From contig NZ_AP027141.1 in NCBI RefSeq assembly GCF_027943945.1, positions 2,728,001 through 2,792,000 of the forward strand: a DNA stretch of 64,000 bases, read 5' to 3'. Below, piece by piece: positions 4,467 through 24,598 of the stretch (its first letter is position 1; each line of letters begins with the position of its first letter). The notes beneath the pieces were generated by a model. It was not told the DNA's origin. It was given only the letters and a program-made list of their open reading frames with translations, and did not search any database. Source of the DNA: Microbacterium terricola (GTDB lineage Bacteria; Actinomycetota; Actinomycetes; Actinomycetales; Microbacteriaceae). The translations under genes were made by a program, and so were the position numbers.

Positions 4467-4511
4467 CGTGGACTCCAATGTCTACTGTGCCGGCGCCATG
4501 CCGGCTCAGAC

Positions 4512-4537
4512 ACAATACCTGCACTAGTGTAGGTTTG
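4512..4537. promoter_or_regulatory. TetR-type operator with overlapping divergent -10 elements
   Basis: An 18-bp inverted repeat ACCTGCACTAGTGTAGGT (4517-4534) has one mismatched pair. It contains a possible + strand -10 TAGTGT (4525-4530), and a - strand TATTGT (4517-4512) abuts it. It sits between the TetR gene and the MFS/GH3 genes, so TetR binding there would block both directions. Binding is inferred from symmetry and position. Confidence 0.6.
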
Positions 4538-4575
4538 TGCAACCGGGCCACCGGAATCGGGATGGAGAGCAGTCG

Positions 4576-5193
4576 ATGGCACACACCGGCTACCCGAAAG
4601 GGCAGGCGAGGCGGGAGGAGATCCTCACCGCCGCCGTGCGCGCGTTCGCGAACGCGGGATACTCCGGTGCGTCGATCCTCGAGATCGCCGCTGCGTGCAA
4701 CATCACCCGTGCCGGCCTCATGCATCACTTCCGGTCGAAGGAGGAGCTCCTCATCGCTGTCCTGGAGCGCCGCGAATCGCTCGATCGCGAGGTCTTCCGC
4801 ACCCACGACTCCCGGCGGCCGGACGGGCTCGGAGTGCTCCGCGGGATGGTGGCCCTCGCCCGCCACAACGAGACCGTTCCGGGCCTCGTGCAGCTCTACG
4901 TCGTCGTCTCCGCCGAGTCCACCTCACCCGACCACCCCGCCCACGACTACATGCACGAGAACTACCGGCGCGTCCGCTCCGGCATCGCGTGGGCACTCCG
5001 CGGAGCGCAGCGCGCCGGCATCCTCGCCCCGGGAATCGATCCCGCCCTCGGCGCGGTGCGTCTGCTCGCGCTGGAGGAAGGGCTGCAGCGCCAATGGCTC
5101 GACGACCCCGACGGCATCTCGCTCGCGGGCACGCTCGAGGCGACCGTGAGCGAGATGCTCACCGTGCCGCTCTGGAGCGCGGACGAGGGATAG
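4576..5193 (+). CDS. TetR/AcrR family transcriptional regulator
   Basis: A 205-residue protein. Residues 8-55 form the TetR helix-turn-helix (REEILTAAVRAF, then ILEIAAACNITRAGLMHHFRSKEELL). The rest is a helical ligand-binding and dimer domain of normal length. The ATG has GGAGAG six bases upstream. A GTG at 4537 is in frame and lies six bases after a -10-like TAGTGT, so a leaderless longer form with 13 extra residues is possible. The protein is divergent from the MFS/GH3 pair and most likely represses it until a sugar ligand binds. The ligand is unknown. Confidence 0.85.
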   Translation: MAHTGYPKGQARREEILTAAVRAFANAGYSGASILEIAAACNITRAGLMHHFRSKEELLIAVLERRESLDREVFRTHDSRRPDGLGVLRGMVALARHNETVPGLVQLYVVVSAESTSPDHPAHDYMHENYRRVRSGIAWALRGAQRAGILAPGIDPALGAVRLLALEEGLQRQWLDDPDGISLAGTLEATVSEMLTVPLWSADEG

Positions 5194-5263
5194 GCTCACT
5201 CCAACCGGGGAGCCCCTCAACGACGAGTGAGCTCTGACTCGGCCCCTGCGACGGGAGATGTGC

Positions 5264-5551
5264 GTGAAGACACCATTGCAACGGCTCGATTCCTATGTCA
5301 CCGGCTTCGCCGGATTCGGTGGTGTCGGGCTCCTGGCGGGCGTGGGGGTGCTCGCCCTCGCGTCGTCGGCGTACGAGCCGGGCGCGTGGCTGCTGCTCGG
5401 CTGGGTCCTCACTCTGCTCTCGGCCTTGGCGCTCCTGGCAGGGGCGACCGGCCACGCGATCGGCCTGGCGGCGCGCGGCATCATCGCGGAGACCGCGCGC
5501 CCTTCCGACGGCGTCCCGGCTGCGCCCACGAGTGACGCCGCCTCGGTCTAG
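5264..5551 (+). CDS. Small membrane protein, unknown
   Basis: 95 residues with two predicted helices, GFGGVGLLAGVGVLALASSA and LLLGWVLTLLSALALLAGA, and a short polar C-terminus. The GTG at 5264 is preferred because GGGAG lies six bases before it; an ATG at 5258 would leave no room for a ribosome site. I recognise no family. It is a single gene between the TetR gene and a convergent 42-residue membrane protein, and it ends inside a strong hairpin. Confidence 0.6.
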   Translation: MKTPLQRLDSYVTGFAGFGGVGLLAGVGVLALASSAYEPGAWLLLGWVLTLLSALALLAGATGHAIGLAARGIIAETARPSDGVPAAPTSDAASV

Positions 5552-5563
5552 GGCGAGGCGGCG
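5536..5563 (+). terminator. Perfect 10-bp hairpin over the stop codon
   Basis: CGCCGCCTCG (5536-5545) pairs with CGAGGCGGCG (5554-5563) around an eight-base loop holding the TAG stop. There is no U-run, as is common for terminators in high-GC actinobacteria. It may serve both convergent small genes. Confidence 0.5.
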
Positions 5564-5603
5564 ATGCCGGAAGGCGGGGTCCAGCCTGAGACCGGCGCGA
5601 TAG

Positions 5604-5732
5604 TCAGAGTCGCTGCAGCAGGTCGTCGCGCGTCGGCGCAGCGTGGTACCCGTCGCGAGCGACCTGGACGAGCGTCGAGACGCCCATGATGAGCACGAGA
5701 ACTCCGATGGCGATGAGCAGGATGATTGCCAT
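5604..5732 (-). CDS. 42-residue single-helix membrane protein
   Basis: The protein starts MAIILLIAIGVLVLIMGVS, one hydrophobic helix, followed by a polar tail ending DDLLQRL. An excellent ribosome site (GGAGG, six bases before the ATG) supports translation despite the short length. I recognise no family. It lies downstream of, and on the same strand as, nothing obviously related; the large LuxR regulator upstream on this strand ends 126 bases before it begins. Function is unknown. Confidence 0.6.
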   Translation of the reverse strand: MAIILLIAIGVLVLIMGVSTLVQVARDGYHAAPTRDDLLQRL

Positions 5733-5858
5733 GATTGGCCTCCAATGCGGGTGATCCGACAACCCCGACACTCGTCCGTGAGGTGGTCGGCCTGCATGAG
5801 GCATCCGCCGTATCTTCCGGCGCGGGCCATCGGGCGCGTCTGAGGGAGGCGCGCCCCG

Positions 5859-8789: not shown

Positions 8790-8908
8790 GAACTCATCGT
8801 CCCACGGTCCTCGGACAATGGGCCGGCCGGCCGACTCAGGCCCGCCCCCTCCCGCCGCGACCCCACCCGGCCCGTCCGCAGAGCGGAGCGGTCCGGCGAG
8901 CGAAGCCG

Positions 8909-9103
8909 TCAATGTGCGAGCGGCCGGGGTGCGTGGTGCGTCAGCTCGCGCAGCTTGTGCGTGAACTCCCGCAGGCCTCGTCGCGCGGGCGGTGTGGCTT
9001 CGGATGCCCGTTCACGGGCGACCCGCCGATGCTCGAGCTCGCGAAGCAGTTGCACCTCCGTGGCAAGGCGAAGGTGGTCGAACAGTTGCTCGCTGGCGTA
9101 CAT
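8909..9103 (-). CDS. Small charged helical protein, unknown
   Basis: 64 residues, Arg/Glu-rich and probably one or two helices (EQLFDHLRLATEVQLLRELEHRRVARER). A textbook GAGGAGG site six bases before the ATG argues it is translated. It lies 119 bases upstream of the large LuxR regulator on the same strand and may be co-transcribed with it. No family is recognised. Confidence 0.55.
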   Translation of the reverse strand: MYASEQLFDHLRLATEVQLLRELEHRRVARERASEATPPARRGLREFTHKLRELTHHAPRPLAH

Positions 9104-11890: not shown

Positions 11891-12009
11891 TCCCATAGGG
11901 GTCGCCAGGAATCCCCTACTGGGGGGTGGGGAGCCGCGGGCTGCTCCCCGATGTGCCCCCTGCCCGGCTGCTCTTACCGTGAAGCCACATCACCTTCGGG
12001 GACAGCCCC
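11891..12009. promoter_or_regulatory. Candidate control region of the repeat-protein/dynamin operon
   Basis: The region holds CCC-ATA-GGGG (11892-11901), CCCC-TACT-GGGG (11913-11924) and GGGG-ACAG-CCCC (11998-12009). The first two are centred about 22 bp apart, roughly two helical turns. The GGGG-N4-CCCC form recurs twice upstream of iniB. A -10-like TACCGT lies at 11975-11980. The regulator is inferred to be the IniR-like protein. Confidence 0.35.
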
Positions 12010-12026: not shown

Positions 12027-12977
12027 ATGGACAACATCGAGATCGACGACTACGACGAGTCGTTCAACACCGGCGTCTGGGGATCGGGCAACACCGAGAC
12101 CACAAACACCACCAACACCCTCGGCCTGGCGGCTGACAACTCCTTCAACACCGACGAATCGACCAACGACAGCGGCAACATCGTCGTGGATGTCGCGGAC
12201 TCGTTCAACGAGGACTCGAACGACACGACCACCGACATCTCGGACTCGTGGAACGACGAGTCCGACAACTCGGTCGACGATCACAGCGACAACTCGATGG
12301 AGGACCACTCCGACAACTCGATGACGGACGACTCCGACAACTCGATGACGGACGACTCCGACAACTCGGTCAACGACTCGCACAACGACTGGTCCACCGA
12401 CACGGTGAGCGACTCGCACAACATGTGGACCGACGCGTCGACCGACGACCACTCCATCAACGTGGGGATGCGCTCCTACAACACGGGCTTCGGCGACGTG
12501 TCGCTCGGCGGCGGTGGCGGTGCCGGCGGTGACGGCGACACGATGGTCAACAACCAGAACACGATCATCGACCAGTCGTACAACGCCGCAGGCGGCGGAG
12601 GCGGCTGGAGCGGCAGCAGCGCCGTGGTCGCGTCGGGCGACGACTCGATCGCCGCCGGCAACGATGTGCACGTCGCGACGAACGTCGACTACTCGACGAA
12701 CATCTCGTCGGCTGAGGGCGATGTCAACCTCAACAACGACACGACGATCACGACCGTCACCGGCTCGTACAACACCTACGAGGACTCCTCCAGCTGGGAG
12801 GACAGCTCGACCCACACCTCGGTCGCCGACTCGTACAACTCGTACACCGAGTCGTACTCGGCGGAGGACTCGTTCAACGAGACCAACGACCTGTGGCAGT
12901 CCACCGACGTCTCGATCGACGTCGACGCGATCGTCGACAGCGGCGACGCGGTCATCGACGACTCCTTCGCCGGCTGA
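12027..12977 (+). CDS. Asp/Asn/Ser-rich octapeptide-repeat protein 1 (IniB-related core)
   Basis: 316 residues, extremely acidic and low in hydrophobic residues, with no signal peptide. The N-terminal half is built of DSFN/NDSGN-type units and five exact octapeptides (SDNSxxDx, residues 79-118). A Gly-run (LGGGGGAGG) is followed by a core: NTIIDQSYN, then VVASGDDSIAAGND, then GDVNLNND, then SYNTYED. The same core order occurs in the second repeat protein and in the IniB-like protein at 18081-18962. A repetitive solenoid or polymer-forming structural protein is plausible. It opens a + strand series that leads into two dynamin-like GTPases. Function is inferred from context only. Confidence 0.75.
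   Translation: MDNIEIDDYDESFNTGVWGSGNTETTNTTNTLGLAADNSFNTDESTNDSGNIVVDVADSFNEDSNDTTTDISDSWNDESDNSVDDHSDNSMEDHSDNSMTDDSDNSMTDDSDNSVNDSHNDWSTDTVSDSHNMWTDASTDDHSINVGMRSYNTGFGDVSLGGGGGAGGDGDTMVNNQNTIIDQSYNAAGGGGGWSGSSAVVASGDDSIAAGNDVHVATNVDYSTNISSAEGDVNLNNDTTITTVTGSYNTYEDSSSWEDSSTHTSVADSYNSYTESYSAEDSFNETNDLWQSTDVSIDVDAIVDSGDAVIDDSFAG
12261..12380 (+). repeat. Five tandem 24-bp units encoding SDNSxxDx
   Basis: Residues 79-118 of the first repeat protein are five head-to-tail octapeptides: SDNSVDDH, SDNSMEDH, SDNSMTDD, SDNSMTDD, SDNSVNDS. The DNA units are near-identical (tccgacaactcg core). Confidence 0.9.
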
Positions 12978-13014
12978 CCCACCCGACAGCTCAAACTGAA
13001 GAAAGCGAAAGATC

Positions 13015-13989
13015 ATGGCCGACTACACCGAGAACGACTTCGACGACTCGTTCAACTCACGGGTCCGCGACTCTCACAACACGACCAACACGACGAGCAG
13101 CACGACCGTCGGCGTCGACCTGAACGAGGTCGGCAACACCGACTCGTCGACGAACGACAGCGGAAATCTCGACGTCGCCCTCGACGGCGTCGGGAACACC
13201 GACTCGCACGACACCAGTACCGGCATCAGCGGGTCGTTCAACGACTGGTCCGACAACTCCGTCGACGACAACAGTGACAACTCGGTCTGGGACGGCAGCG
13301 ACAACTCCGTCACCGACAACAGCGACAACTCGGTCACCGACAACAGCGACAACTCGACGAACGGGTCGTACAACGACGCATCGACGAGCCTCATCGCGGG
13401 GTCGTACAACTCGTATCTCGACGAGTCGGTCGACGACCACTCGATCGAGGTGGGGACGCGCGACTACAACACGGGCTTCGGCAACCTCACCCTCGGCGGC
13501 GGCGGTGGCGGCGGTGGCGATGTCTGGGTCAACAACCAGAACACGATCGTCGACCAATCGTTCAATGCGGGCGTCGACGGTGCGGACGGGTACGGGGCCG
13601 AGAGCGGAAGCTCCGCAGTCGTCGCCTCGGGTGCAGGCTCGGTCGCGGCAGGCAACGACGTGGACCTCAGCCAGAGCGTCGATCACTCGCAGAACATCTC
13701 GGCGTACGGCGATGTGAACATCGGCAACGAGGCCCACGTCACCACCGTCACCGACTCGTACAACGAGACGACCGACAACTCGTCGTGGACGGACAGCTCG
13801 ACGCACCTCGACGTGGACGACTCGTACAACACCGACTCGGCCAGCTGGACGGCGACGAACTCGTTCAACGAGGAGCTCACGTCGCAGACCGATTCCACCT
13901 GGGATGTCGACGCCGACGTGATCTGGGGCAGCGGCGACGCTGCGATCATCGAGCCGCCGGCGATCGACGACGCATTCGACGAGTCCTGA
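13015..13989 (+). CDS. Asp/Asn/Ser-rich octapeptide-repeat protein 2 (IniB-related core)
   Basis: 324 residues and a clear paralogue of the preceding protein. It has the same five-octapeptide block at residues 79-118, the same YNTGFGN and LGGGGGGGG segment, and the same core (NTIVDQSFN, VVASGAGSVAAGND, GDVNIGNE, DSYNETTD). There is no signal peptide and no IniB-type N-terminal domain. It starts 37 bases after the first repeat gene. Duplication with kept spacing suggests that the two proteins are parts of one assembly. A GC-rich hairpin separates it from the dynamin genes downstream. Confidence 0.75.
   Translation: MADYTENDFDDSFNSRVRDSHNTTNTTSSTTVGVDLNEVGNTDSSTNDSGNLDVALDGVGNTDSHDTSTGISGSFNDWSDNSVDDNSDNSVWDGSDNSVTDNSDNSVTDNSDNSTNGSYNDASTSLIAGSYNSYLDESVDDHSIEVGTRDYNTGFGNLTLGGGGGGGGDVWVNNQNTIVDQSFNAGVDGADGYGAESGSSAVVASGAGSVAAGNDVDLSQSVDHSQNISAYGDVNIGNEAHVTTVTDSYNETTDNSSWTDSSTHLDVDDSYNTDSASWTATNSFNEELTSQTDSTWDVDADVIWGSGDAAIIEPPAIDDAFDES
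13249..13368 (+). repeat. Five tandem 24-bp units encoding SDNSxxDx (second copy)
   Basis: Residues 79-118 of the second repeat protein are SDNSVDDN, SDNSVWDG, SDNSVTDN, SDNSVTDN, SDNSTNGS. They occupy exactly the same residue numbers as in the first repeat protein. Confidence 0.9.
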
Positions 13990-14023
13990 TCCCATCCGTT
14001 CGGCAATCCGCGCCGAATCACTA

Positions 14024-14058
14024 GGGCGGTGTCTCCGGTACCTCCGGAGGCGCCGCCC
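14024..14058 (+). terminator. Hairpin between repeat-protein and dynamin genes
   Basis: The inner stem CTCCGG/CCGGAG (14033-14038 with 14044-14049) is extended by GGGCGG/CCGCCC (14024-14029 with 14053-14058). There is no U-run. It lies 34 bases after the repeat-protein stop, so partial termination or RNA protection could make structural protein exceed GTPase. Confidence 0.45.
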
Positions 14059-14114
14059 GCCCCATGCTCACCAGCATCCGCGCTGATCCGCAGGACGACG
14101 AAGGAGTGTCGACG

Positions 14115-16001
14115 ATGACGAAGTCCGTGGCCCCCGCACCGGTGACGACCGCCCCTGGGGATGACACCTCGACGACGGCGATCGCCCGTGCCAACCAGCA
14201 GCTGGCGCACCTCGTCGAGAAGACCGCCGACCTGTCGCGCGTGCTCGGGCGCGCCGACCTCGTCGGGCGACTGGAGCAGACGCGCTCGCGGCTCGATGAC
14301 CCATACGTCCGCGTGATCGTCGTCGGCCAGTACAAGCAGGGCAAGAGCAAGCTCGTGAACGCCCTGGTGAACGCGCCCGCCTGCCCGGTCGACGACGACA
14401 TCGCCACCAGTGTGCCCACGTCCGTGTCGTACGGCGAGGAGGCCGCCGCGTTCGCGATCGTGCGCAACGGCGACACCCAGGGGGGCGCCGTCGACCGGAT
14501 GCCCATCCCGCTCGACGCGCTCGCGGACTTCGTGTCGGAGCGCGGCCGTCGCGACGAGGAGCTGGACATCGTGGGCGCCGAGGTCGTCCTTCCGCGCGAG
14601 CTGCTCCGCGGGGGGCTGCGGCTCGTCGACTCTCCGGGAGTCGGCGGCATCGAATCGACACGGTCGGTCAGCACCCTCGCCGCGCTGTCGACGGCGCACG
14701 CCGTGCTGCTCGTCTCCGACGCCTCGCAGGAGTACACCGAGCCCGAGGTGCAGTTCCTCAAGCACGCCCTGCGGGTGTCTCCGAACGTCGCCGCGGTGCT
14801 GTCGAAGACCGACATCTATCCGTCGTGGCGCCAGATCGAGGAGATCGACCGCTCGCACCTCGGCGATGTGGGCGGCATACCGATGTTCGCGGTGTCGAGT
14901 GACCTGCGGATGCTGGCGGCACAGGAGCAGGATCGCGATCTGAACGAGGAGTCCGGGTTCCCGGCCCTCGTCTCCCATCTGCGACGCGACGTGCTCGGCA
15001 AGGCGGAGATCGTGCACCGCCGCTCGGCGGTGCACGATCTCGTGTCCGTCGTCGATCAGCTGGGCATGGCCATCAAGACCGAGTTGAACGCGCTCCTGAA
15101 CCCCCAGGACACCCCGGCGATGATCGCCGAGCTCGAGGCGGCGAAGGCACGCGCAGACGAGTTCCGCGGCCGGACGTCGCGGTGGCAGGTCACCCTGAGC
15201 GACGGGATCGCCGACCTCATCTCCGACACCGAGCACGACCTGCGCGACCGACTCCGCAAGGTGCAGCGCGAAGCGGAGATCGCCGTCGACGAGGGCGACC
15301 CCGGCCCGATCTGGGATCAGATCGCCGAATGGCTCGAGCAGCGCGTGTCGAACGCCGTGTCCGAGACGTTCGTCTGGACCAACGAGCGCTCGCGCTGGCT
15401 CTCCGAGCAGGTCGCCGAGGAGTTCGCGCTCGAGGAGTCGACCATCCCCTTCATCGACGTCGGCGACACCGCCGGCGTGCTCGACCCGGTCGAGAGCCTG
15501 CAGGGAATGGGCGAAGGGCGACTCGGTGCCGCCGAGAAGATCTACATCGGCGTACGCGGCTCGTATGGCGGCGTCCTGATGGCGGGGCTCGCCACGAGCC
15601 TGGTGGGCATGGCGCTCATCAACCCCCTGTCGCTCCTGGTCGGCGTGCTCGTCGGCCGTCGCGCCTATCGCGAAGACATGTCGGCGCGGCTCAGCCGCCG
15701 CCAGGCCGAGGCGAAGAACCTCGCCCGCCGGCATATCGAAGACGTCGTCTTCCAGGTGGGCAAACAGCTCAAGGACCGCCTGCGGTTCGTCCAGCGGGTC
15801 GCTCGCGACCACTTCGGCGGCATCGCCGACGAGCTGCACCGCTCGCTGTCCGAGTCCGTGCTCGCCGCCAAACAGGCCGCCGCGACCTTCGAGGCCGACC
15901 GCAACGGACGCGTGATCGAACTCCGGCAGCAGATCGCGCGGATCGAGGCCCTGCGCGCCGAGATCCCGGCATCCGCGGGCGAACGGGACGTGCGCTCATG
16001 A
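14115..16001 (+). CDS. iniA: Dynamin-like GTPase, IniA-like
   Basis: 628 residues, close to the usual length of mycobacterial IniA. GTPase motifs are G1 GQYKQGKSK (71-79), G3 DSPGVGG (172-178) and G4 SKTD (230-233). A long helical stalk follows, and a hydrophobic hairpin at about 485-514 (GVLMAGLATSLVGMALINPL) is the expected membrane-inserting paddle. The ATG has AAGGAG eight bases upstream. The next gene overlaps it by ATGA. Bacterial dynamin-like proteins of this type bind and remodel membranes, and IniA is linked to drug and envelope-stress tolerance in mycobacteria. That role is assumed here by homology and gene order. Confidence 0.85.
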   Translation: MTKSVAPAPVTTAPGDDTSTTAIARANQQLAHLVEKTADLSRVLGRADLVGRLEQTRSRLDDPYVRVIVVGQYKQGKSKLVNALVNAPACPVDDDIATSVPTSVSYGEEAAAFAIVRNGDTQGGAVDRMPIPLDALADFVSERGRRDEELDIVGAEVVLPRELLRGGLRLVDSPGVGGIESTRSVSTLAALSTAHAVLLVSDASQEYTEPEVQFLKHALRVSPNVAAVLSKTDIYPSWRQIEEIDRSHLGDVGGIPMFAVSSDLRMLAAQEQDRDLNEESGFPALVSHLRRDVLGKAEIVHRRSAVHDLVSVVDQLGMAIKTELNALLNPQDTPAMIAELEAAKARADEFRGRTSRWQVTLSDGIADLISDTEHDLRDRLRKVQREAEIAVDEGDPGPIWDQIAEWLEQRVSNAVSETFVWTNERSRWLSEQVAEEFALEESTIPFIDVGDTAGVLDPVESLQGMGEGRLGAAEKIYIGVRGSYGGVLMAGLATSLVGMALINPLSLLVGVLVGRRAYREDMSARLSRRQAEAKNLARRHIEDVVFQVGKQLKDRLRFVQRVARDHFGGIADELHRSLSESVLAAKQAAATFEADRNGRVIELRQQIARIEALRAEIPASAGERDVRS

Positions 16002-17521
16002 GCGGTGCGCTCGCGGACGTCACGGAACTCGTCGACGAGGCCCGCGCGATGTATGCCGGCGACTCCGCCGCCGAGGCCGCGCTCGACGGGTACGCGCGCC
16101 GCCTGCGGGAGCCGCTGCGCCTCGCCGTGGCGGGCATGGTCAAGGCCGGCAAGTCGACGGTGCTCAACGCTCTGATCGGCGAGCAGATCGCGCCGACCGA
16201 TGCCGGTGAGTGCACCCGGACGATCACCTGGTACCGCTACGGCCGGACCGCCACGATCACCGCGCACCTTCACGGCGGCGCCGAGGTGCGGCTGCCCGTG
16301 ACCCGGTCCGCGGGCGCGCTCGTCCTCGACCTCGGTTCGCGGACCGCAGAGGACATCGCCTGGATCGACGTGGTCTGGCCGTCCGAGAGCCTCCGCTCCA
16401 CCGTCCTCATCGACACCCCGGGCATCGCCTCGATCTCGCAGGAGGTATCGGAGCGCTCCACGCGGTTCCTGACGCCGACGCGCTCGCCGTCCGAGGCCGA
16501 CGCGATCCTGTACCTGCTCCGCCACATCCACGGGTCGGACGTGCGGTTCCTCGAGGCCTTCCGCGACACGGCCGCCGGCGCGTCGCAGACCGTCAACGCC
16601 GTCGCACTCCTGTCGCGCGCCGACGAGATCGGCTCCGGCCGGATCGACTCGCTGCTCTCCGCCGCCCGCATCGCCGAGCGCTATCGTCACGACGGCGACC
16701 TGCGCTCCCTGGCGCTCGAATGCATCCCGGTGGCAGGGCTTCTCGCTGAAGGCGCCCGCACGCTCCGCGAGAGCGAGTTCGCGGCGTTCCGCACACTCGC
16801 CCGGCTCGACCGCGCCGTGCGCGACCGCCTGCTCATCTCGGTGGACCGCTTCACCCGCACGACGCGCGATACCTCGCTGAGCGTGACCCAGCGGCGGGAG
16901 CTCCTCGCGCGCTTCGGGATCTTCGGCGTCCGGCTGGGCGCCGCGCTCGTGCGCGGCGGGGCACGCACGTCCTCCCAGCTGTCCGAGCGGATGGTCGCCC
17001 AGAGCGGGCTGATCGACGTGCAGCGATTCGTCGCCGACCAGTTCCGTGCACGCGGGGCGTCACTCAAGGCGCGGAGCGTGCTGGTCGGGCTCGAGATGCT
17101 GCTGGAGGATCATCCGACCCGCCAGTCCACCCGCATCCGCGCCGGCATCGAGCGCATCACCGCGAACAGTCACGATCTCCGCGAACTCGCTCTCCTCGCG
17201 GAGCTGCGCACCGCCGAACCCGCCCTCGCTGCCGCCGATGCGACGGCCGCTCAGCGCCTCCTCGGCGGATCGGGGACCTCGGCTCTCCGGCGTCTCGGGC
17301 TGCGAGACGACGCGGAGGCCTGGGCGATCCATGCCCGTGTCGACGGGGTTCTCGGCCACTGGCGCCGCCTGGCGGAGTCGCCGCTCTCGGATCGTGCCAC
17401 GAGCGAGGCCTGCCGCGTCGTGATCCGCAGCATCGAGGGCGTGGCGTCAGAGCTGGCCGTCGGAAGCGGGAGTGACCGGACCGCCGCGGCGGACGTCGTG
17501 CTGGCGAGCCGTCCAGCGTAG
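15998..17521 (+). CDS. iniC: Dynamin-like GTPase, IniC-like
   Basis: 507 residues, near the length of mycobacterial IniC. G1 is GMVKAGKS (46-53), G3 DTPGIAS (139-145) and G4-like SRADE (206-210). The C-terminal part is helical with no obvious membrane hairpin, so it probably works with the IniA-like partner, as bacterial dynamins often come in pairs. The start overlaps the upstream stop (ATGA), indicating coupled synthesis. Its last 75 bases overlap the end of a convergent membrane-protein gene. Confidence 0.84.
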   Translation: MSGALADVTELVDEARAMYAGDSAAEAALDGYARRLREPLRLAVAGMVKAGKSTVLNALIGEQIAPTDAGECTRTITWYRYGRTATITAHLHGGAEVRLPVTRSAGALVLDLGSRTAEDIAWIDVVWPSESLRSTVLIDTPGIASISQEVSERSTRFLTPTRSPSEADAILYLLRHIHGSDVRFLEAFRDTAAGASQTVNAVALLSRADEIGSGRIDSLLSAARIAERYRHDGDLRSLALECIPVAGLLAEGARTLRESEFAAFRTLARLDRAVRDRLLISVDRFTRTTRDTSLSVTQRRELLARFGIFGVRLGAALVRGGARTSSQLSERMVAQSGLIDVQRFVADQFRARGASLKARSVLVGLEMLLEDHPTRQSTRIRAGIERITANSHDLRELALLAELRTAEPALAAADATAAQRLLGGSGTSALRRLGLRDDAEAWAIHARVDGVLGHWRRLAESPLSDRATSEACRVVIRSIEGVASELAVGSGSDRTAAADVVLASRPA

Positions 17522-18094
17522 AGCCTGCGGGAGCAGGCTGATCAGGAGGCCGAGGACGGCGAGCCCCAGCTGCACCAGGAGGATCCGCTCGAGGGGCAGG
17601 GCCCGCTCGCCGAAGACGACAAGTTCACGAGCGATCAGGAAGACTCCGGCCTGGAACAGCACAGACCCGAACTGCCACCATCGGACGTTCGCCCGACGAC
17701 TCGCGAACGACACCTGCATGGCGATCTGGGCGAGCACGATCGCGACCAGCGGCGTGAACACCGACCAGAACACGATGTCGGCAGCCGTCGTATAGGTGGC
17801 GTCGGCCCGCGATCCGTCGACGGCCTTCACGAGATCCTCGATCTCGGGCAGCTGGGCCTGCCGGATGACGAACAGGTAGATGATCGCGACGCCACCGGCG
17901 ATGAGACTCATCAGCCACGCGATCTGGCTGAGGCGCACGAAGAACGGCGGCGGCAGCTTCACGAGCACCGGTGCCGCCTCCTTGCCGGTCAGCGGCGGGC
18001 GATCCGGCGCCCTGACCTCGGCGGTCTGCGCGTCGTCCACCTGAGCGGCCCCCGCCTCCAGCCGGAGCGGCTCCTTCGTGTCAGAAGTTGTCAT
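17447..18094 (-). CDS. Four-helix membrane protein of the ini-like locus
   Basis: 215 residues. A charged, Pro-containing cytoplasmic N-terminus (about 55 residues) precedes four predicted helices: IAWLMSLIAGGVAIIYLFV, DIVFWSVFTPLVAIVLAQI, LFQAGVFLIARELVVFG and LLVQLGLAVLGLLISLL. I chose the ATG at 18094, which has GAGAG eight bases upstream and lies within the end of the iniB-like gene; an ATG at 18109 lacks a ribosome site. The overlap with iniB suggests coupled expression. Family not recognised. Convergent overlap with the IniC-like gene may give antisense effects. Confidence 0.72.
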   Translation of the reverse strand: MTTSDTKEPLRLEAGAAQVDDAQTAEVRAPDRPPLTGKEAAPVLVKLPPPFFVRLSQIAWLMSLIAGGVAIIYLFVIRQAQLPEIEDLVKAVDGSRADATYTTAADIVFWSVFTPLVAIVLAQIAMQVSFASRRANVRWWQFGSVLFQAGVFLIARELVVFGERALPLERILLVQLGLAVLGLLISLLPQALRWTARQHDVRRGGPVTPASDGQL

Positions 18095-18962
18095 CGTCGG
18101 CGCTCTCATCGATGATCACGGGCTCGACGTCCGAGAACGCGCCACCCGAATCCTCGGCCAGGTCGGTCTCCACATACTGCGTCGCCGCATCCTCGTACTG
18201 GACGTCGGCGTCGGCCGTCTCGGGCTCGACGGTCTCGGTTTCGGTCTCCACGGTCGCTGGATCCGCCGCAGCGGTATCCGTCCCCGTGTCCGTGACGATC
18301 GTCGTGTCGGCGGTCTCCGTGACGGTCTCGGTGTCGTTGAAGGAGTCGTCAGCGTCGACCTGACCGGTCTGCTCGTCGAACGAGTCGTCGACGACGACCA
18401 CGGTGGAGTCGTCGGTCGTGGTCGAGGCGTCGGTCTCCTCGTTCATGGAATCCTCGACGACCTGCACGTCCGTCTCGTTGCCCATGTTGACGTCGTCGCC
18501 GGCTTCGATCGTGGTCGACTCATCCCAGGTCTTGTCGACCGTGGCGTCGTTGCCCGCGGCGACGGCCTCGTCGCCGGACGCGACGATCGCGTCGTTGTCG
18601 AACGTCTGCGTCACGTCACCGTCTGCCCAGATGTTCTGGTTGACCGACTGGTCGACGACGGTGTCCCGGTCGTCCACCCACTGGAAGTGCGAGGTGACCT
18701 GGTTGATCTCACGAACGATCGCGGACTGGTGCTCGCGCTCGAAGTAGACCGGCTGCGGAACGCCGACCTGGACGACATGCGTGCGCTCGATGATGATCGG
18801 CGCGACAGCGGCGACATCCGATGGACCGGCATGCTGGAGACCGCGGGCCGCGAGCGCCCCCTCCGGGTCTGCGTCGAACTCGGCCTGGGCGTCCGGGTCC
18901 CGGAGCAGGCTGAGGATGAATTCGATCAAGGCGTCTGCGACTGTCGCGAGCGTGAGGCTCAT
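18081..18962 (-). CDS. iniB: IniB N-terminal-domain protein
   Basis: 293 residues. Residues 1-45 (ALIEFILSLLRDPDAQAEFD and PEGALAARGL) are the IniB N-terminal domain. The middle shares the repeat-protein core: DRDTVVDQSVNQN, DAIVASGDEAVAAGND and DDVNMGNETDV. The C-terminus is Thr/Glu/Asp-rich low complexity. There is no signal peptide. The ATG has AAGAGGAG six bases upstream. In mycobacteria IniB is encoded together with IniA and IniC and is thought to be an envelope-associated structural protein. Here iniB is on the opposite strand from the dynamin genes, directly downstream of the IniR-like regulator gene. Confidence 0.85.
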   Translation of the reverse strand: MSLTLATVADALIEFILSLLRDPDAQAEFDADPEGALAARGLQHAGPSDVAAVAPIIIERTHVVQVGVPQPVYFEREHQSAIVREINQVTSHFQWVDDRDTVVDQSVNQNIWADGDVTQTFDNDAIVASGDEAVAAGNDATVDKTWDESTTIEAGDDVNMGNETDVQVVEDSMNEETDASTTTDDSTVVVVDDSFDEQTGQVDADDSFNDTETVTETADTTIVTDTGTDTAAADPATVETETETVEPETADADVQYEDAATQYVETDLAEDSGGAFSDVEPVIIDESADDDNF

Positions 18963-19022
18963 GCTCGGCTCCTCTTCATTGTGGTCTTTCGACCGTACGT
19001 GGCTGGGTGGTCTGAGCGCGTC

Positions 19023-19068
19023 GGGGTATACCCCCCACGCGGGGCGAATCGAGTAGGGGGATATCCCC
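19023..19068. promoter_or_regulatory. Two perfect GGGG-N4-CCCC palindromes upstream of iniB
   Basis: GGGGTATACCCC (19023-19034) and GGGGATATCCCC (19057-19068) are each perfect 12-bp palindromes, with centres 34 bp apart, in the 118-base gap between the regulator gene and iniB. A similar GGGG-ACAG-CCCC lies before the first repeat gene. They are candidate binding sites for the IniR-like regulator. Confidence 0.45.
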
Positions 19069-19080
19069 GGGGTGGGTCGG

Positions 19081-21633
19081 TCATGCGCTGGCCCTCGCCC
19101 CGCCGTGGCCCGCATCGTCGCCGTCGGCATCGTCGAGGGCGACGCGCAGCTTCGCGATGAGATCCGACCGGTTCGTCGCGCCCAGGCGACGGCGGATGCG
19201 GGCGATGTGGTGCTCCGCCGTGCGCGGGGAGATGAAGATGGTGGCACCGATCTCGGCGTAGGTCTTGCCCTGCACGACGAGGGCAGCGACCTCGAGCTCG
19301 CGCGGGCTGAGGTCGGAGGGGGTGCGCGGGCGTTGCGCGGAGACCGCGTCGCTCTCGACGGCAGGGGGACGGAGATCCTCGTGCGGATGCAGGCGACGGG
19401 CCGCGGCGAGAAGCCGCGCCGTGAGCCGGCGATCGTCGGTGTGACCCGCTCCGTGCCCGGCGAGCCGCGCACCGTCCCACGCGAGTCCCACGGTGCCGAG
19501 CGCGGTCGCCGCGGCTTCCACTGCCTCGACGTCGACGGTGCCCGACAGCACGTTCGTCCAGACCCGGCCCGCCTGCGCCATGATCGAGGCCAGTCTGCTG
19601 TGGGGTGCGGCGTCGATGAGCGCGTGCGCGTGCGACGTCATGTCCTGCGGTCGCCCGCGGAGGATGGCTTGCTGGATCCCGGCCCAATGGGCGTGCGCTG
19701 CCCAGAGCGGAGGCGAGCCCAGCTGCTCGAGCCGCGCGAGAGCCTGTGCGAAGTGCGCCTCGACGCGCTCCGGCTCGCCGACCCTGGCCGCCGTCACAAC
19801 GAACTCTCCGAGCGGCAGGATGCTGAACAGGTCGAACGATGCGCGCATGAGACTCTCCCGCGCGGCCCGCCATGCCACCGTGAGCGCGACCGCGTCGTGG
19901 TAGCGGCGGGCGATCGACACCGACAGCGCGTCGAACAGCAGCCGCTCGCGCGGGCTGAGCGCATGCGCCGTCGGCGCGATCGCCTCCAGCGCCTCCTCGA
20001 CCTCGTGCGCGCGTTCGAGCTGCAGGGCGACCCACGCACGCCAGAGGACGAGCCGGTCCTGCGCCCACGCACCGCCGTGGCGGTCGTCGAGAGCGCGATC
20101 CAGCACGGCGAGTGCGACGTCCGGTTCGCCGACGTGGAGCGCCGCGAGGGCGGCGACGACCGCTGGCAGCTCCGGGATCGGAGCGGACGTGCGGGCGGCC
20201 GAGTACATCTCGGCCGCCCGGATGAGCTCGCCGAGCGAGGCGTCCGCCGACGTCGTCAGCGTGGCGCGCAGACCGCTCTCGAGCAGATCCATCGCGACGG
20301 CGAGCGTCGACGGCATCGTCGGACCCCGCGCGTGCGCCGACGTCGTGTCGAGGAGCCCCGCGTCGGCCACGGCGAACGCCGCCACGGTCGCACGGGCCCG
20401 CGACGTCGGGGTCGACGGCGCGAATGCGCGGTACACCGCGTCGCTCATGGTGGTCAGCCCGCGCGCCGCCCAGACCGCCGCGGCGGTGTCGGCCGCGGCG
20501 TCATGGTCCGGATGTTCGGCAGGGATGCGGGCGCCGTCGAGGAGGCGGCTGGCGGCCTCGACGCCGCCGAGCTGCCATTCGGCCCGCGCCTCGCGGATCG
20601 CGGCGGTCGCGGGATCGGCGCCCGCCTCGCGAGCGCGCCGGTAGAGCTCGCGCGCACGGCGCGGGTCGGTCGCGCCTACGGCGTCGCCGTGCTGCAGCAG
20701 CAGCTCGGCGAGGTGGGCGTCGTGGACCCCGTCGACGAGGCTGTCCAGGCCGGTGCCCGCAGCATCCGGCCCCCTTCCGGCGCCGACCGTGTCCTCGTAC
20801 AGGCGGATGACGCGCTCGATCGATGAGGTCGCTCGAACGGCCGACCGGACGACCGGGGCCGGGCGGCCTCCCGGCAGCAGCAGGCCCTCGGCGTACGCGG
20901 ACAGGATCAGATCGTCGCGGTCCGCGCGCATGCCGTCGTCGCCACCCAGGCACAGGTGCTCGACGAGGTGCCGCACGGGAGGCGCGACGGTGCGCAGGCG
21001 ATGGGCGATGACATCGCGGAGGACGTCGTGCAGGGCGTCGTGATCGGCATCGCCGGCGCAGTCGGTGGTGTCGTGGACCGCCAGCGACTCGGACACGAGC
21101 CAGGCGGTGCCGCCGGTCGCCTCGAGGACGGCGTCGAGGCAGGCATCCGACATGATGTCGCCGGTCTGCTCGAGGTAGGCGTGGACGTCGGCGCGGCCGA
21201 TGCTGCCGAGCACGACAGCCGGCTGGGAGCGCTCGAGCCTTTCGGCGAGCGCACGGAAGCCGTCGCTCTGCGGCCACGGGCGGGCAGCGAGCACGAGCGC
21301 GGCATCCGGGTCCGCACTGCGCTCCATGAGCGCGGAGAGCTGACCGACGTCGAGCAGGTGGGCGTCATCGATGACGAGCACATGCCCGGCGGGCACTGCT
21401 GCGATCTCGGTCCGGGAGCGGGTCGTGCTGATCGTCGATCCTGCGGCGGCCAGTTCGCCGCGCAGGTGCCGCAGGACGCCCGATTTTCCCGAGCCGGACG
21501 GGCCGGTGAGCAGGAGGCGGCGTGACGCGCGGGCGGAGATCACCGCGTCGACGTGGGCACGGGCGTGGCCGGTCCAGAGAAGGGGGCCCTCCGCCAGGCG
21601 GAGCGGGGCGGAGATCGGCGTCGTCGGCTTCAT
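19081..21633 (-). CDS. IniR-like LuxR-family ATPase regulator
   Basis: 850 residues. The N-terminal P-loop ATPase has Walker A GPSGSGKS (44-51) and Walker B VLVIDDAH (about 85-92). A long helical sensor region leads to a C-terminal LuxR helix-turn-helix (LSPRELEVAALVVQGKTYAE). In mycobacteria a MalT-like signal-transduction ATPase, IniR, sits next to iniBAC and controls it. The same architecture and position suggest the same job here. The ATG has AAAGGA five bases upstream. It follows the Hsp70-like gene by 48 bases and precedes iniB. The inducing ligand is unknown. Confidence 0.82.
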   Translation of the reverse strand: MKPTTPISAPLRLAEGPLLWTGHARAHVDAVISARASRRLLLTGPSGSGKSGVLRHLRGELAAAGSTISTTRSRTEIAAVPAGHVLVIDDAHLLDVGQLSALMERSADPDAALVLAARPWPQSDGFRALAERLERSQPAVVLGSIGRADVHAYLEQTGDIMSDACLDAVLEATGGTAWLVSESLAVHDTTDCAGDADHDALHDVLRDVIAHRLRTVAPPVRHLVEHLCLGGDDGMRADRDDLILSAYAEGLLLPGGRPAPVVRSAVRATSSIERVIRLYEDTVGAGRGPDAAGTGLDSLVDGVHDAHLAELLLQHGDAVGATDPRRARELYRRAREAGADPATAAIREARAEWQLGGVEAASRLLDGARIPAEHPDHDAAADTAAAVWAARGLTTMSDAVYRAFAPSTPTSRARATVAAFAVADAGLLDTTSAHARGPTMPSTLAVAMDLLESGLRATLTTSADASLGELIRAAEMYSAARTSAPIPELPAVVAALAALHVGEPDVALAVLDRALDDRHGGAWAQDRLVLWRAWVALQLERAHEVEEALEAIAPTAHALSPRERLLFDALSVSIARRYHDAVALTVAWRAARESLMRASFDLFSILPLGEFVVTAARVGEPERVEAHFAQALARLEQLGSPPLWAAHAHWAGIQQAILRGRPQDMTSHAHALIDAAPHSRLASIMAQAGRVWTNVLSGTVDVEAVEAAATALGTVGLAWDGARLAGHGAGHTDDRRLTARLLAAARRLHPHEDLRPPAVESDAVSAQRPRTPSDLSPRELEVAALVVQGKTYAEIGATIFISPRTAEHHIARIRRRLGATNRSDLIAKLRVALDDADGDDAGHGGARASA

Positions 21634-21681
21634 CGGGTTCCTTTCATCGGGGCACGGCAGCGGAGCGGGTCGGCAGCCGGG

Positions 21682-23127
21682 CTACGGAAAGAGATCGGTC
21701 ACGACACCCGGCGGCGCGGGCGTCAAGAGCGGATGGACCGTCGTCGCCGAGGGCGACGGGGTGGTCGACGAGCCGGGGGTCGGGGTGCTCACGGATGAGC
21801 TGCCCGGCTCGATGCGCGCCCCGCGCGAGGCTTCCGGGGGCGCGAGCAGAGCGACGGCGATTCCGACGATCAGGACGAGCGCCCCGATGGCGACAGCGGC
21901 GATGGTAGCCGCCCTGCCGAGCCACGGGCGTCGCGCCGCGGGCCGCGCGAAGACCGGTGCCGCGTTCCCGTCGGCGTGCGGAGCGTCGTCGCTGGGCGCG
22001 TCGAGCAGCACCAGCCCGCGCCCCTCCCCCGGAACGCGCGGGCGCTCAGCGCCGGCGATCGCCCGTGCGGCCCCGAGTGAGATGACCGCCTTCGGGTCGG
22101 CATCGACGGCGACCGGCCGGTCGAATCGCTCGGACAGCTGCTGCGCGACCCGAGGGATGCGCGAGGAGCCGCCGGTCAGCAGGATCGCCGTGAGGTCCTC
22201 GGGCGCCAGGCTCGCGGACTCCAGAAGGCTCGCGACGATGTCGACCGTCCGTCCGATGCCGTCCTCGATCATCCCCTCGAGTTCCGCGCGGGTGAGCCGG
22301 ATCACGGCGTCTCCGTCGCCGAGGAAGACGGGGATCACGGCCTCCGAGTCGAACGAGAGGGCTTCCTTGGCGTCGACAGCTTCGCGGCGGAGCGCGGCGA
22401 GTCCGACGCGGGCGTCGTCGTCGGCGGCGAGCTCTGCGATCGACAGGCCGGCCGCCTGCACCGCGTGACGAAGCACGGCATCGTCGAAGTCCGCCCCGCC
22501 GAACGCGTCGAGGCCGACGGGGTCTCCGACGATCTGGATGCTGTGATCGTCCTCGATGCGGACGACCGCGGCGTCGAATGTGCCGCCGCCCAAGTCGTAG
22601 ACCGCGAGGACGGATCCGTCCTCGAGCGAGCGCTCGACGGCGTAGTGCCGCGCCGCGGCCTCCGGCTCGCTGATGAGCTGCACGTCACGCCATCCCGCGC
22701 GCTCGAGCGCGCTCTGCACCAGGTCCGAGCGGTGATCGCCCCACGTGGCGGGGATCGACACGCTGAGCGCGGTCGGGCGCTCGCCCTCGCGTTCGGCGAC
22801 GCCATCGGCGACCCATGAGACGAAGAGCGCGAACAGCTGTTCGGGGGTGAACCGGCGGTCGCCGGCGCGGATGGGCGTCGCATCGCCGATGCGCCGCTTG
22901 AATTCGCGGATGAGTCGCTCGGGCTGGGCGATGCCGCGCCGCTCGGCCGCGTCGCCGAAGAGCAGTTCGCCGTCTCCGACGAAGATCGCGCTGGGCACGC
23001 TGTCGGTGTGCCGGCCGAGCAGGAAAGGCGTCGCAGTGATGACACCGTCCGCACCGACGCGGGCGATCGCGGCGGCCGTCCGGCTGGCGCCGACATCGAC
23101 CGCGAGGAACAACGATGACGAGGTCAC
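21682..23127 (-). CDS. Membrane-anchored Hsp70-like ATPase without substrate-binding domain
   Basis: 481 residues starting at GTG, overlapping the sortase stop as GTGA. Residues 1-375 form an actin/Hsp70 nucleotide-binding domain: VDVGASRTAA (phosphate 1), YDLGGGTFDAAV (phosphate 2) and ILLTGGSSRIPRV (adenosine). The DnaK substrate-binding domain is missing. In its place are a linker, one helix at about 406-429 (AATIAAVAIGALVLIVGIAV) and a 52-residue Ser/Thr/Pro-rich outer tail. An ATPase reporting between envelope and cytoplasm is plausible. Its place between sortase and regulator genes ties it to the ini-like system. Confidence 0.82.
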   Translation of the reverse strand: MTSSSLFLAVDVGASRTAAAIARVGADGVITATPFLLGRHTDSVPSAIFVGDGELLFGDAAERRGIAQPERLIREFKRRIGDATPIRAGDRRFTPEQLFALFVSWVADGVAEREGERPTALSVSIPATWGDHRSDLVQSALERAGWRDVQLISEPEAAARHYAVERSLEDGSVLAVYDLGGGTFDAAVVRIEDDHSIQIVGDPVGLDAFGGADFDDAVLRHAVQAAGLSIAELAADDDARVGLAALRREAVDAKEALSFDSEAVIPVFLGDGDAVIRLTRAELEGMIEDGIGRTVDIVASLLESASLAPEDLTAILLTGGSSRIPRVAQQLSERFDRPVAVDADPKAVISLGAARAIAGAERPRVPGEGRGLVLLDAPSDDAPHADGNAAPVFARPAARRPWLGRAATIAAVAIGALVLIVGIAVALLAPPEASRGARIEPGSSSVSTPTPGSSTTPSPSATTVHPLLTPAPPGVVTDLFP

Positions 23128-23798
23128 TGCGACTCACTCCCCTTCAGTGCGGCGAACACGATGAGGTTGTCGGTGTAGTGGCCGACGGATCGGTCGAACA
23201 TGCCGGCGCAGGTGATGAGACGCAGCTCAGGGCGCGGGACATTGCGGTACACGTCGGCGGTCGGGAAGTTCGCCTTGGCCGACTGCATCCGTCCCGTGAT
23301 CGTGAAGACCAGTGACTGGCCGGCGTCGGTGTCGACGACGACATCGTCACCGACCTCTAATTCGTCCAGGCGAGCGAACACGGCGGGTCCGGTCTGCGAG
23401 TCGACGTGCCCGGCGATGATCGCCGGTCCGATCTCACCGGGGGCCGGCCCGTCGGCGTACCAGCCGGCACTGTCGTAGTCGTCCGGCGCTCCGAGCGCGC
23501 CGGACCGCCCCACGCTCAGGCGCTCCAGCGAGGAGGAGACGCCCAGACTCGGGATCCGCACCGCGACCGGGTCGCCGACGTCCACGGAGACCTGTGAGCC
23601 GGAAGGATCCTGCAGCCCCCCGGCAGCGAACGCATTCGCCTGGGCGGTCGGCGTGACCGCGTGCACGGCCTCGGGCGCTGCGGCCTCGGGCGCCGGGCCA
23701 TCGGGTGCGGGCCTCATTGCGACGGCCACGACCAGCGCGCCGGCGAGGACCACGGCCGCCGCGGCGCCGATGACCCAGCGCACGTCGGGGAGGATCAT
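23124..23798 (-). CDS. Class F sortase
   Basis: 224 residues. One N-terminal helix (VIGAAAAVVLAGALVVAVAM) anchors the protein, followed by an Ala/Pro linker and a sortase barrel. The catalytic His is in IIAGHVDS and the catalytic Cys in LITCAGMFD, with DRSVGHYTDN after it, as in class F (sortase E/F-like) enzymes. It overlaps both neighbours: TGATG with the DUF4397 gene and GTGA with the Hsp70-like gene. The natural substrate is unclear because the DUF4397 partner has no LPXTG signal. Confidence 0.88.
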   Translation of the reverse strand: MILPDVRWVIGAAAAVVLAGALVVAVAMRPAPDGPAPEAAAPEAVHAVTPTAQANAFAAGGLQDPSGSQVSVDVGDPVAVRIPSLGVSSSLERLSVGRSGALGAPDDYDSAGWYADGPAPGEIGPAIIAGHVDSQTGPAVFARLDELEVGDDVVVDTDAGQSLVFTITGRMQSAKANFPTADVYRNVPRPELRLITCAGMFDRSVGHYTDNLIVFAALKGSESQ

Positions 23799-24598
23799 CA
23801 GACAGCCTTCGTCCAACCGTAGGTGCGTGTGACGACGGAGGTGCTCGACGCGGTTCCGCCGCCGCCGGTCTGCACGCCGCCGTCGGGCGCATCTCCCACG
23901 GCCGCGGAATCGACGATCGGGAGGATCGTGAGACCACCGTCTGCGGTGTCGAGGACGAACAGCGTCGAAACGCTGCCTGCGGCGACATCGACATCGGCCG
24001 AGGCGCTCTTGTCTCCGCCGGTCAGTTCGAGCGTCCACGACCCGGCCGGCACCTCGGCGTAGTCGGTCACCGAGCCCTGGGTGGCATCCTCGGCGATCGG
24101 AACGCCGGTCGACGTCTCGACATCCACCGAATCGGCGAGCGTGGATGCCTGGAAGAGGCGGATGCGTGCACTGCCGGAGGACGGCGCGGCCAAGTCGTCG
24201 TCGACCGCCTTGACCTCGAGGTCGGTGGACGGGCCGTAGGCGACGACCGTCATCGCACTGTCAGCGGGCACCTTGATGTCCGCCGAGATCACGGCAGACG
24301 TGCTCGCGGGCGACCCGGCCGGCACCATGCTGACGGTGTACGAGCCTGGCGTGAGCTCGGAGTACGCCGAGACGTCGCCGTAACTCACACCCTCCAGCTC
24401 GAGCACGGTCTTCCCGCTCGGCGAGGTGACCTCGACGTCGACCGACTTCGTGTCCGGGGAGAGATGACCGAGCCGCAGCCAGCCGGTCTCCGCCGTGGCG
24501 GCGGTCGCCGCGCCGGGAGCGAACGCAAGGCTGAGGGCCACGAGGGCGGCGGCGCTGACAGCGCCGATGGTGCGTCGCATGCTCGAACGGTTGGTCAT
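23798..24598 (-). CDS. DUF4397 domain secreted protein
   Basis: 266 residues with a signal peptide (VSAAALVALSLAFAPGAATA) and two DUF4397-like beta repeats, the first beginning WLRLGHLSPDTKSVDVEV. The C-terminus is Gly/Thr-rich (VQTGGGGTASSTSVV) and, unlike the first DUF4397 protein, has no membrane helix. The ATG has AAAGG seven bases upstream. It is the first gene of the - strand series leading through sortase, Hsp70-like ATPase, regulator and iniB. Probably exported; function unknown. Confidence 0.83.
   Translation of the reverse strand: MTNRSSMRRTIGAVSAAALVALSLAFAPGAATAATAETGWLRLGHLSPDTKSVDVEVTSPSGKTVLELEGVSYGDVSAYSELTPGSYTVSMVPAGSPASTSAVISADIKVPADSAMTVVAYGPSTDLEVKAVDDDLAAPSSGSARIRLFQASTLADSVDVETSTGVPIAEDATQGSVTDYAEVPAGSWTLELTGGDKSASADVDVAAGSVSTLFVLDTADGGLTILPIVDSAAVGDAPDGGVQTGGGGTASSTSVVTRTYGWTKAV

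Follow-up and report, generated by a model that had tools for sequence, protein, structure and literature searches.

Work on the iniBAC genes has treated them as the response of tuberculosis bacteria to drug stress and has interpreted them through mycolic-acid biology and trehalose. Here we analyze a related gene cluster of Microbacterium terricola, located at positions 12027-24598 of a 64,000-nucleotide stretch of DNA (the window; contig NZ_AP027141.1) in a genome assembled as a single contig of 3,251,508 bases. Mycolates are not known from Microbacterium and Arthrobacter. We consider it probable that this cluster represents, in Microbacterium, an old envelope-stress system of actinobacteria that mycobacteria have as iniBAC-iniR, and that it works by the mechanism proposed below.

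Several parts of the mycobacterial system have been described. IniA cuts membranes with GTP (PMC6715688), and vesicle output falls upon loss of iniAC in M. tuberculosis (PMC11077946). IniR, which was compared with MalT, is an activator of iniBAC and binds the DNA ahead of these genes (PMC5760070). In the last of these papers, Boot et al. had already pointed out that iniR of M. smegmatis has a dnaK-like gene as neighbour. In the open-access literature searched, we found no description of an ini system outside mycobacteria, of its phylum-wide reach or of the promoter words reported here.

The Microbacterium cluster consists of ten genes. R1 (12027-12977), R2 (13015-13989), iniA (14064-16001) and iniC (15998-17521) follow each other on the plus strand, and the transcription order on the minus strand is the DUF4397 gene (23798-24598), a class F sortase gene (23124-23798), an Hsp70-type gene (21682-23127), iniR (19081-21633), iniB (18081-18962) and a gene for a four-transmembrane (4-TM) protein (17447-18109). 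Coupling of iniA and iniC is through a common ATGA; the DUF4397 stop and the sortase ATG have one base in common, the sortase stop and the Hsp70 GTG overlap as GTGA, and iniC and the convergent 4-TM gene overlap tail-to-tail by 75 bp. The initial annotation of this DNA, made from sequence without database searches, had nine of these genes in place, with their motifs, start/stop overlaps and order, and omitted the 4-TM protein, which has 220 residues and four hydrophobic stretches by hydropathy. Likeness to mycobacterial iniBAC-iniR comprises IniA and IniC orthologues, the IniB N-terminal domain, an IniR-type regulator, linkage and CCCCTA boxes before IniB genes. In addition, an Hsp70-type gene was present in the examined stretch of all six genomes of genus g92, taken as Mycobacterium; its family, f6, is taken as mycobacterial because the g92 IniR passes the NCBIfam cut-off. 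However, genes that form one row elsewhere (iniB-iniA-iniC) are split in the window into two convergent units, iniB with the extra 4-TM gene and R1-R2-iniA-iniC, and the genes ahead of iniA encode IniB relatives that lack the N-terminal domain.

The two dynamin-like GTPases were assigned by profile, structure match and phylogeny. Both matched Dynamin_N (3.1e-18 and 7.4e-14), and IniA matched the solved IniA structure 6j72 with an E-value of 2.9e-127. Motifs GQYKQGKS, DSPGV and SKTD were found in IniA, and GMVKAGKS and DTPG in IniC. In a quick maximum-likelihood tree of 91 dynamins, whose rows had been pre-sorted by profile score (200 bits) so that grouping was tested within that sorting, 41 IniA-like and 43 IniC-like rows were each set apart by a single branch (SH-aLRT 99 and 100), and seven other actinobacterial dynamins fell outside both clades. 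Several outgroup rows were long-branched, and the IniA-like row of locus L210 was dropped with its P-loop unrecognised. The window dynamins clustered with those of f6 and not with unrelated families, the latter being an outcome that the initial annotation had named as refuting its proposal. With a numbering offset of 2 that was inferred, the P-loop Ser and the membrane-binding Arg, given as S50 and R488 in the IniA paper, correspond to S95 and R532 and are kept. Paired bacterial dynamins such as CjDLP1/2, LeoABC and B. subtilis DynA are similar in being dynamin GTPases, often paired in operons; in the tree, the non-ini dynamins compared with the IniA and IniC clades were the seven actinobacterial ones.

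Assignment of the regulator and of IniB relied on profiles. The IniR-type protein, a signal-transduction ATPase with a LuxR-type DNA-binding domain, matched NF038181 (E = 8.4e-107) with residues 24-834 on profile positions 5-826 of 827, contains GPSGSGKS and VIDDA motifs, and is 31 and 34% identical to the two aligned f6 sequences. It resembles MalT-type ATPases in its N-terminal ATPase and C-terminal LuxR-type domain, but has only a weak match to the MalT model, at the DNA-binding end. IniB matched IniB_NTERM (NF038175) with an E-value of 1.2e-17 and 63.6 bits against a cut-off of 40. Its structural model has confident helices at residues 4-59 and 82-93 (mean pLDDT 93-95 over residues 11-60), followed by an acidic low-complexity tail that is mostly of low confidence. 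With these profiles, the linkage and the tree, the proposal of an ini-type system outside mycobacteria is borne out. A second large ATPase with a LuxR-type domain is encoded at 5859-8912 on the minus strand of the window; it is distant from IniR (23% identity at best in the tree set). Elsewhere, M. oleivorans and a relative have IniR paralogues (L119, L122, L128 and L135) beside which no ini genes were found; on one contig, an IniR copy of this kind (L128) occurs in addition to a linked one (L127).

R1 and R2, acidic repeat proteins of 316 and 324 residues, were listed in the initial annotation as additional genes. They reached no curated family in profile searches of the window proteins, which was also true of the 4-TM protein, and IniB was the only one of the ten proteins to match the N-terminal domain profile, R1 and R2 giving no match at E-values up to 10. 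We built a profile of the middle region of IniB, using seven loci, the window not among them, that have IniB itself ahead of IniA. Its signature, TxVDQSVN...ASGDxxxAAGxD, is present in R1 (E = 5.7e-7) and R2 (E = 4.1e-6); the profile matched 40 of 47 IniB-family proteins lacking the N-terminal domain, the other seven giving no match, and none of 4,800 shuffled copies, which rules out mere composition as the source of the likeness. Profile-profile comparison (hhalign) of R-type proteins with IniB gave a probability of 99.9% and an E-value of 1.3e-34 over 161 columns. On this profile evidence, R1 and R2 are IniB relatives without the N-terminal domain rather than additions to the system. In the split arrangement such relatives occupy the place of IniB ahead of iniA, and among the loci tested an IniB-family gene lies directly upstream of iniA on the same strand for 87 of 96 IniA genes. 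At two of the loci without one (L203 and L204), another small or repetitive-looking ORF is found there.

The composition of these proteins also bears on a different explanation, in which IniB and the R proteins would be the payload, that is, acidic disordered protectants or coat proteins released in vesicles with the help of the dynamins. R1 has an extreme composition, with 68 acidic residues and a single basic one, the R2 model shows no confident fold (mean pLDDT 40.9, no residue reaching 70), several IniB-family genes occur per locus, and the vesicle phenotype of iniAC in M. tuberculosis would fit such a role. However, neither R1 nor R2 has a hydrophobic helix or signal-like stretch by hydropathy, and for nine of the 96 IniA genes no IniB-family gene was found in front. 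We regard release as payload as unlikely.

Recurrent linkage of the genes speaks for the envelope-stress reading. IniB_NTERM and IniA were each detected in 11 of 150 family genomes, and these were the same 11. Hsp70, IniR, IniB and IniA were linked in all ten other family loci, and IniC and the 4-TM gene in nine, the contig ending in the tenth; IniB relatives without the N-terminal domain were present in three of the ten. In a draw of 396 genomes across the phylum, 15 had IniR at E-values of 1e-40 or lower and 18 had IniB_NTERM, which exceeded its cut-off in 11 of them; 14 genomes had both. Alignment detected IniA in 19 of 392 phylum genomes, including 14 of the 15 with IniR, and the fifteenth (G538) has IniA beside IniR. 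With regard to weak IniB-only matches, one genome (G262) has ini genes, and no ini gene was found for another (G438) in the stretch fetched. Of 20 stretches fetched, six that come from outside the class of the window (L079-L081 and L083-L085) have Hsp70, IniR, IniB-family, IniA and IniC genes together. All five are on one contig in L082/L088, L087 has IniR, IniA, IniC and Hsp70 with a weak IniB match, and the fetched stretch of L086 contained none of the five.

We also compared 80 named loci, the best 80 of 530 confirmed by IniR similarity, a sample that leans to Micrococcales. Hsp70 was present in 70, IniB in 70, IniA in 66, IniC in 64 and the 4-TM gene in 63; all six core genes, counting the 4-TM gene, were found in 57 of the 80 and in 54 of the 66 loci of at least 15 kb, while six loci had no other ini gene. 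Two gene orders dominated: in 22 loci a collinear one, H>R>B>A>C>M<, and a split one, H>R>B>M>C<A<(B or b)<, with 17, 9 and variants. Chance linkage is ruled out by this recurrence in other genomes. Judged by sequence, the core of the system consists of the membrane Hsp70-type ATPase, the IniR-type regulator, the IniB family, IniA and IniC, with shared promoter words before IniB-family genes, and the 4-TM protein is, on the same comparison, a core part in Micrococcales and some relatives. No convincing 4-TM relative was found near IniC in f6, where three ORFs picked by hydropathy were valine-rich or not opposite IniC.

Considering that Hsp70-IniR-IniB-IniA-IniC recurs outside the class of the window and that six genes stand together in 57 of the 80 named loci, the Hsp70-type protein is by its distribution a core part of the system and not an addition, contrary to the initial annotation; the gene noted in M. 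smegmatis likewise places it next to iniR. The window protein matched the HSP70 profile (E = 2.9e-43) in its nucleotide-binding part only, with a DLGGGTFD motif, followed by a predicted membrane-anchoring hydrophobic helix (residues 409-427) and a Pro/Ser/Thr-rich tail. It has the nucleotide-binding motifs of DnaK/Hsp70 chaperones, but differs from them in being membrane-anchored, with a tail predicted outside, and in having no match to the substrate-binding domain, the best Pfam stretch stopping at profile position 370 of 599. By eye, the tails of many relatives, including those of f6, are longer than that of the window protein and of the same kind, and the tails of L085, L200 and L204 look folded. 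L200 encodes two Hsp70-type proteins, and the tail repeats of one (4434-6893) resemble a beta-propeller by eye. Hsp70 adjoins iniA-iniC at L203, L204 and L257, whose stretches yielded no IniR match, which suggests that the dynamins, and not IniR alone, are its working partners. In addition, CIRCE-like words were present in 23 of 80 Hsp70 upstream stretches (L069, L089-L094, L100-L102 and others), and in all 23 a divergent groES was read on their other side; shared heat-shock control of these groES-adjacent genes is possible.

Inspection of upstream sequences by eye revealed CCCCTA boxes, and also a TACSGT-like hexamer with a CCCCGATG word some 20 bases ahead of it. In the window, two inverted boxes (11896-11918; TAGGGG at 11896, CCCCTA at 11913) lie upstream of R1, and a predicted promoter element CCCCGATG-N21-TACCGT (11946-11980, plus strand) precedes R1-R2-iniA-iniC. 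Upstream of iniB are a single box (19054-19059) and the corresponding element CCCCGACG-N21-TACGGT (18992-19026, minus strand). The pattern CCCCGAYG-N19-22-TACSGT had two matches in the window, one per unit (mean of 0.01 in window shuffles), and two in the whole 3.25 Mb genome, both at the ini units; as the pattern had been derived visually from these two sites and from relatives, this genome count is descriptive. CCCCTA/TAGGGG occurs five times in the 64 kb, three of these at the two ini promoters. On our reading of these upstream regions, the CCCCTA boxes and the CCCCGAYG-N21-TACSGT element before both window operons are new here.

Across loci, the box was present in 56 of 79 iniB upstream stretches (shuffle mean 8.2) and in 16 of 29 stretches before the first IniB relative in the split arrangement (shuffle mean 2.4), nine of 38 having been left out as too short; for many of the R stretches, including that of the window, the longest frame set the cut, and the true promoter may lie outside them. 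One control word showed little or no enrichment (14 versus 8.6 and 7 versus 6.0). When starts were anchored on the profile, or 150 bases inside the longest frame for genes without an N-terminal-domain match, all 14 IniB promoters from eight f6 loci had at least two boxes, and of seven promoters in other classes all had at least one and five at least two, compared with 0.12 boxes per 260 bp at control ORFs of the same loci; promoter sequences had been inspected before the boxes were counted. L087, left out of this count, had no box before its IniB-type gene in another count and one in its stretch upstream of IniA. Upstream of IniA, we observed 0.06 boxes per kb at loci without IniR nearby (one box in seven loci, including L256 in spite of a 29-bit match nearby) versus 0.68 at 16 hand-picked loci with IniR. 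Chromatin immunoprecipitation (ChIP) places IniR directly before iniBAC (PMC5760070), a comparison with the boxes by region and not by exact site. We take the CCCCTA boxes as the likely IniR site. At L115 (Naasia), tandem repeats of about 18 bases (CCCGAAGTGCAACACCCA) were observed before iniB, upstream of position 12600.

How such a system might work can be outlined. Damage to the wall or membrane would be detected through a ligand of IniR, through the Hsp70-type protein with its tail predicted outside the membrane, or through both. IniR would then bind the CCCCTA/CCCCGAYG region and turn on both units, IniA and IniC would remodel or cut the damaged membrane, and the acidic, apparently disordered IniB-family proteins may serve as cytoplasmic scaffolds or dynamin partners. 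The sortase-DUF4397 pair would be a separate cassette that in this lineage came to be placed ahead of the Hsp70 gene. A likely role for the system is repair or fission of membranes under the control of IniR when the envelope is stressed; sensing by Hsp70, the scaffold role of IniB and R proteins, and repair by fission are what we infer from gene content and order. A more far-reaching version, in which iniBAC would be the mycobacterial branch of an ancient Actinomycetota regulon predating mycolic acids, with a transmembrane Hsp70-type ATPase whose tail faces the wall gating IniR, a promoter element conserved between classes and the disordered acidic IniB family as a dedicated scaffold of IniA and IniC, is put forward only tentatively.

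Several observations weigh against the envelope-stress reading or parts of it. IniA of the window has a Pro at the position given as R63 in the IniA paper, an Arg in solved IniA (numbering offset inferred). The IniR score of 358.5 bits is below the NCBIfam equivalog cut-off of 750, and the protein is therefore called IniR-type. Another regulator, HpoR, represses iniBAC in M. bovis BCG and acts on the iniBAC promoter there (PMC13413693), and thus IniR need not be the sole control. With respect to the promoter words, the reversed control pattern likewise had two genome matches; the control word ATCCCC was enriched too (38 versus 18.2 for iniB, 22 versus 8.4 for R), and part of the box signal is therefore C-run context; boxes were rare in family f85 (one box in five promoters); and the linkage of an IniR-type regulator to ini genes with common promoter words has exceptions at L161, L164, L165 and L205, which have no boxes despite IniR. 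L208 and L210 bear IniA and IniC with no Hsp70 in the stretch examined, and L254 and L258, both of f6, have a lone IniA-like gene without ini neighbours. The sensor role of Hsp70 rests on position and topology, the window tail being short, and the partnership of IniB with the dynamins rests on gene order. Finally, the distribution is patchy, with the system in 11 of 150 genomes of the family and 53 of 198 of the genus, and it is therefore dispensable.

Related clusters elsewhere in the phylum have the main genes in common with this one and, it appears, the control DNA, so the ini system is not peculiar to mycobacteria. If the same regulator, dynamins and promoter words prove functional in Microbacterium and Arthrobacter, a mycolate-specific signal is excluded, the Hsp70-type protein and the IniB family become testable core parts, and harmless soil bacteria could serve as models for the mechanism. 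The predicted promoter element provides an exact site to test.

The initial annotation had gone further and joined all ten genes into one larger machine. In such a machine, the sortase and the DUF4397 protein would be working parts that anchor a surface protein feeding the Hsp70/IniR sensor. The sortase matched NF033748 narrowly (168 bits against a cut-off of 166) and has a TCAG motif, and the DUF4397 protein matched its profile with an E-value of 6.2e-36. The start/stop overlaps of DUF4397, sortase and Hsp70 genes suggest one transcript, and in another genus (L021, G102) all ten genes occur together, with 74.5-88.8% identity for the nine compared (IniB was left out); a search of the 2.9 and 3.9 kb flanking that locus gave no match to any of eight proteins from the window flanks. 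However, neither gene was present at any of the 80 named loci, the pair was found in one of the ten family neighbourhoods, and in seven of 12 other genomes searched, sortase-DUF4397 pairs occur at a distance from the ini genes. Within the genus, IniA was found in 53 of the 198 genomes, a sortase relative in 35 and both in 17; of these 17, the window alone has the two within 15 kb of each other, five have them far apart on a single contig and 11 have them on different contigs, which is weaker evidence in broken assemblies. Furthermore, there is no CCCCTA box upstream of DUF4397, and as a GVDTG sorting-signal protein it scored 15.6 bits against 29, with GGVQTG kept and the hydrophobic tail and basic end absent. 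A free-standing DUF4397 relative (L244) has both, and the ends of other relatives are incomplete too. Core membership of the pair is thus rejected, and it is best read, from its distribution, as a separate cassette and a local addition in this lineage. In short, linkage of the core held in the genome search, that of sortase and DUF4397 was confined to the window and one other genus among the genomes examined, and the ten-gene machine as a whole is unsupported and appears quite improbable. A second DUF4397-class F sortase pair is located at the start of the window and immediately ahead of it (sortase match ending at 84, DUF4397 match at 651-995).

Very improbable, compared with an envelope-stress system, is a membrane-surveillance phage defence using dynamins and a STAND-type regulator: it would fit the patchy distribution, the resemblance of IniA to the LeoBC and LeoA models of PADLOC-DB (3.3e-18 and 2.1e-14) and the phage resistance conferred by B. 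subtilis DynA (PMC8844932), but IniA was found on one of 72,556 plasmid records (E limit 1e-30) and matched one of 50,697 phage records, weakly and over 37% of its length, an R2 search of phages was empty (a low-complexity filter may have hidden matches), and the mycobacterial version responds to wall drugs (PMC5760070). One of the loci collected, L089, is recorded as Planococcus sp. APC 4015; it nests among Microbacterium and is probably a misnamed record.

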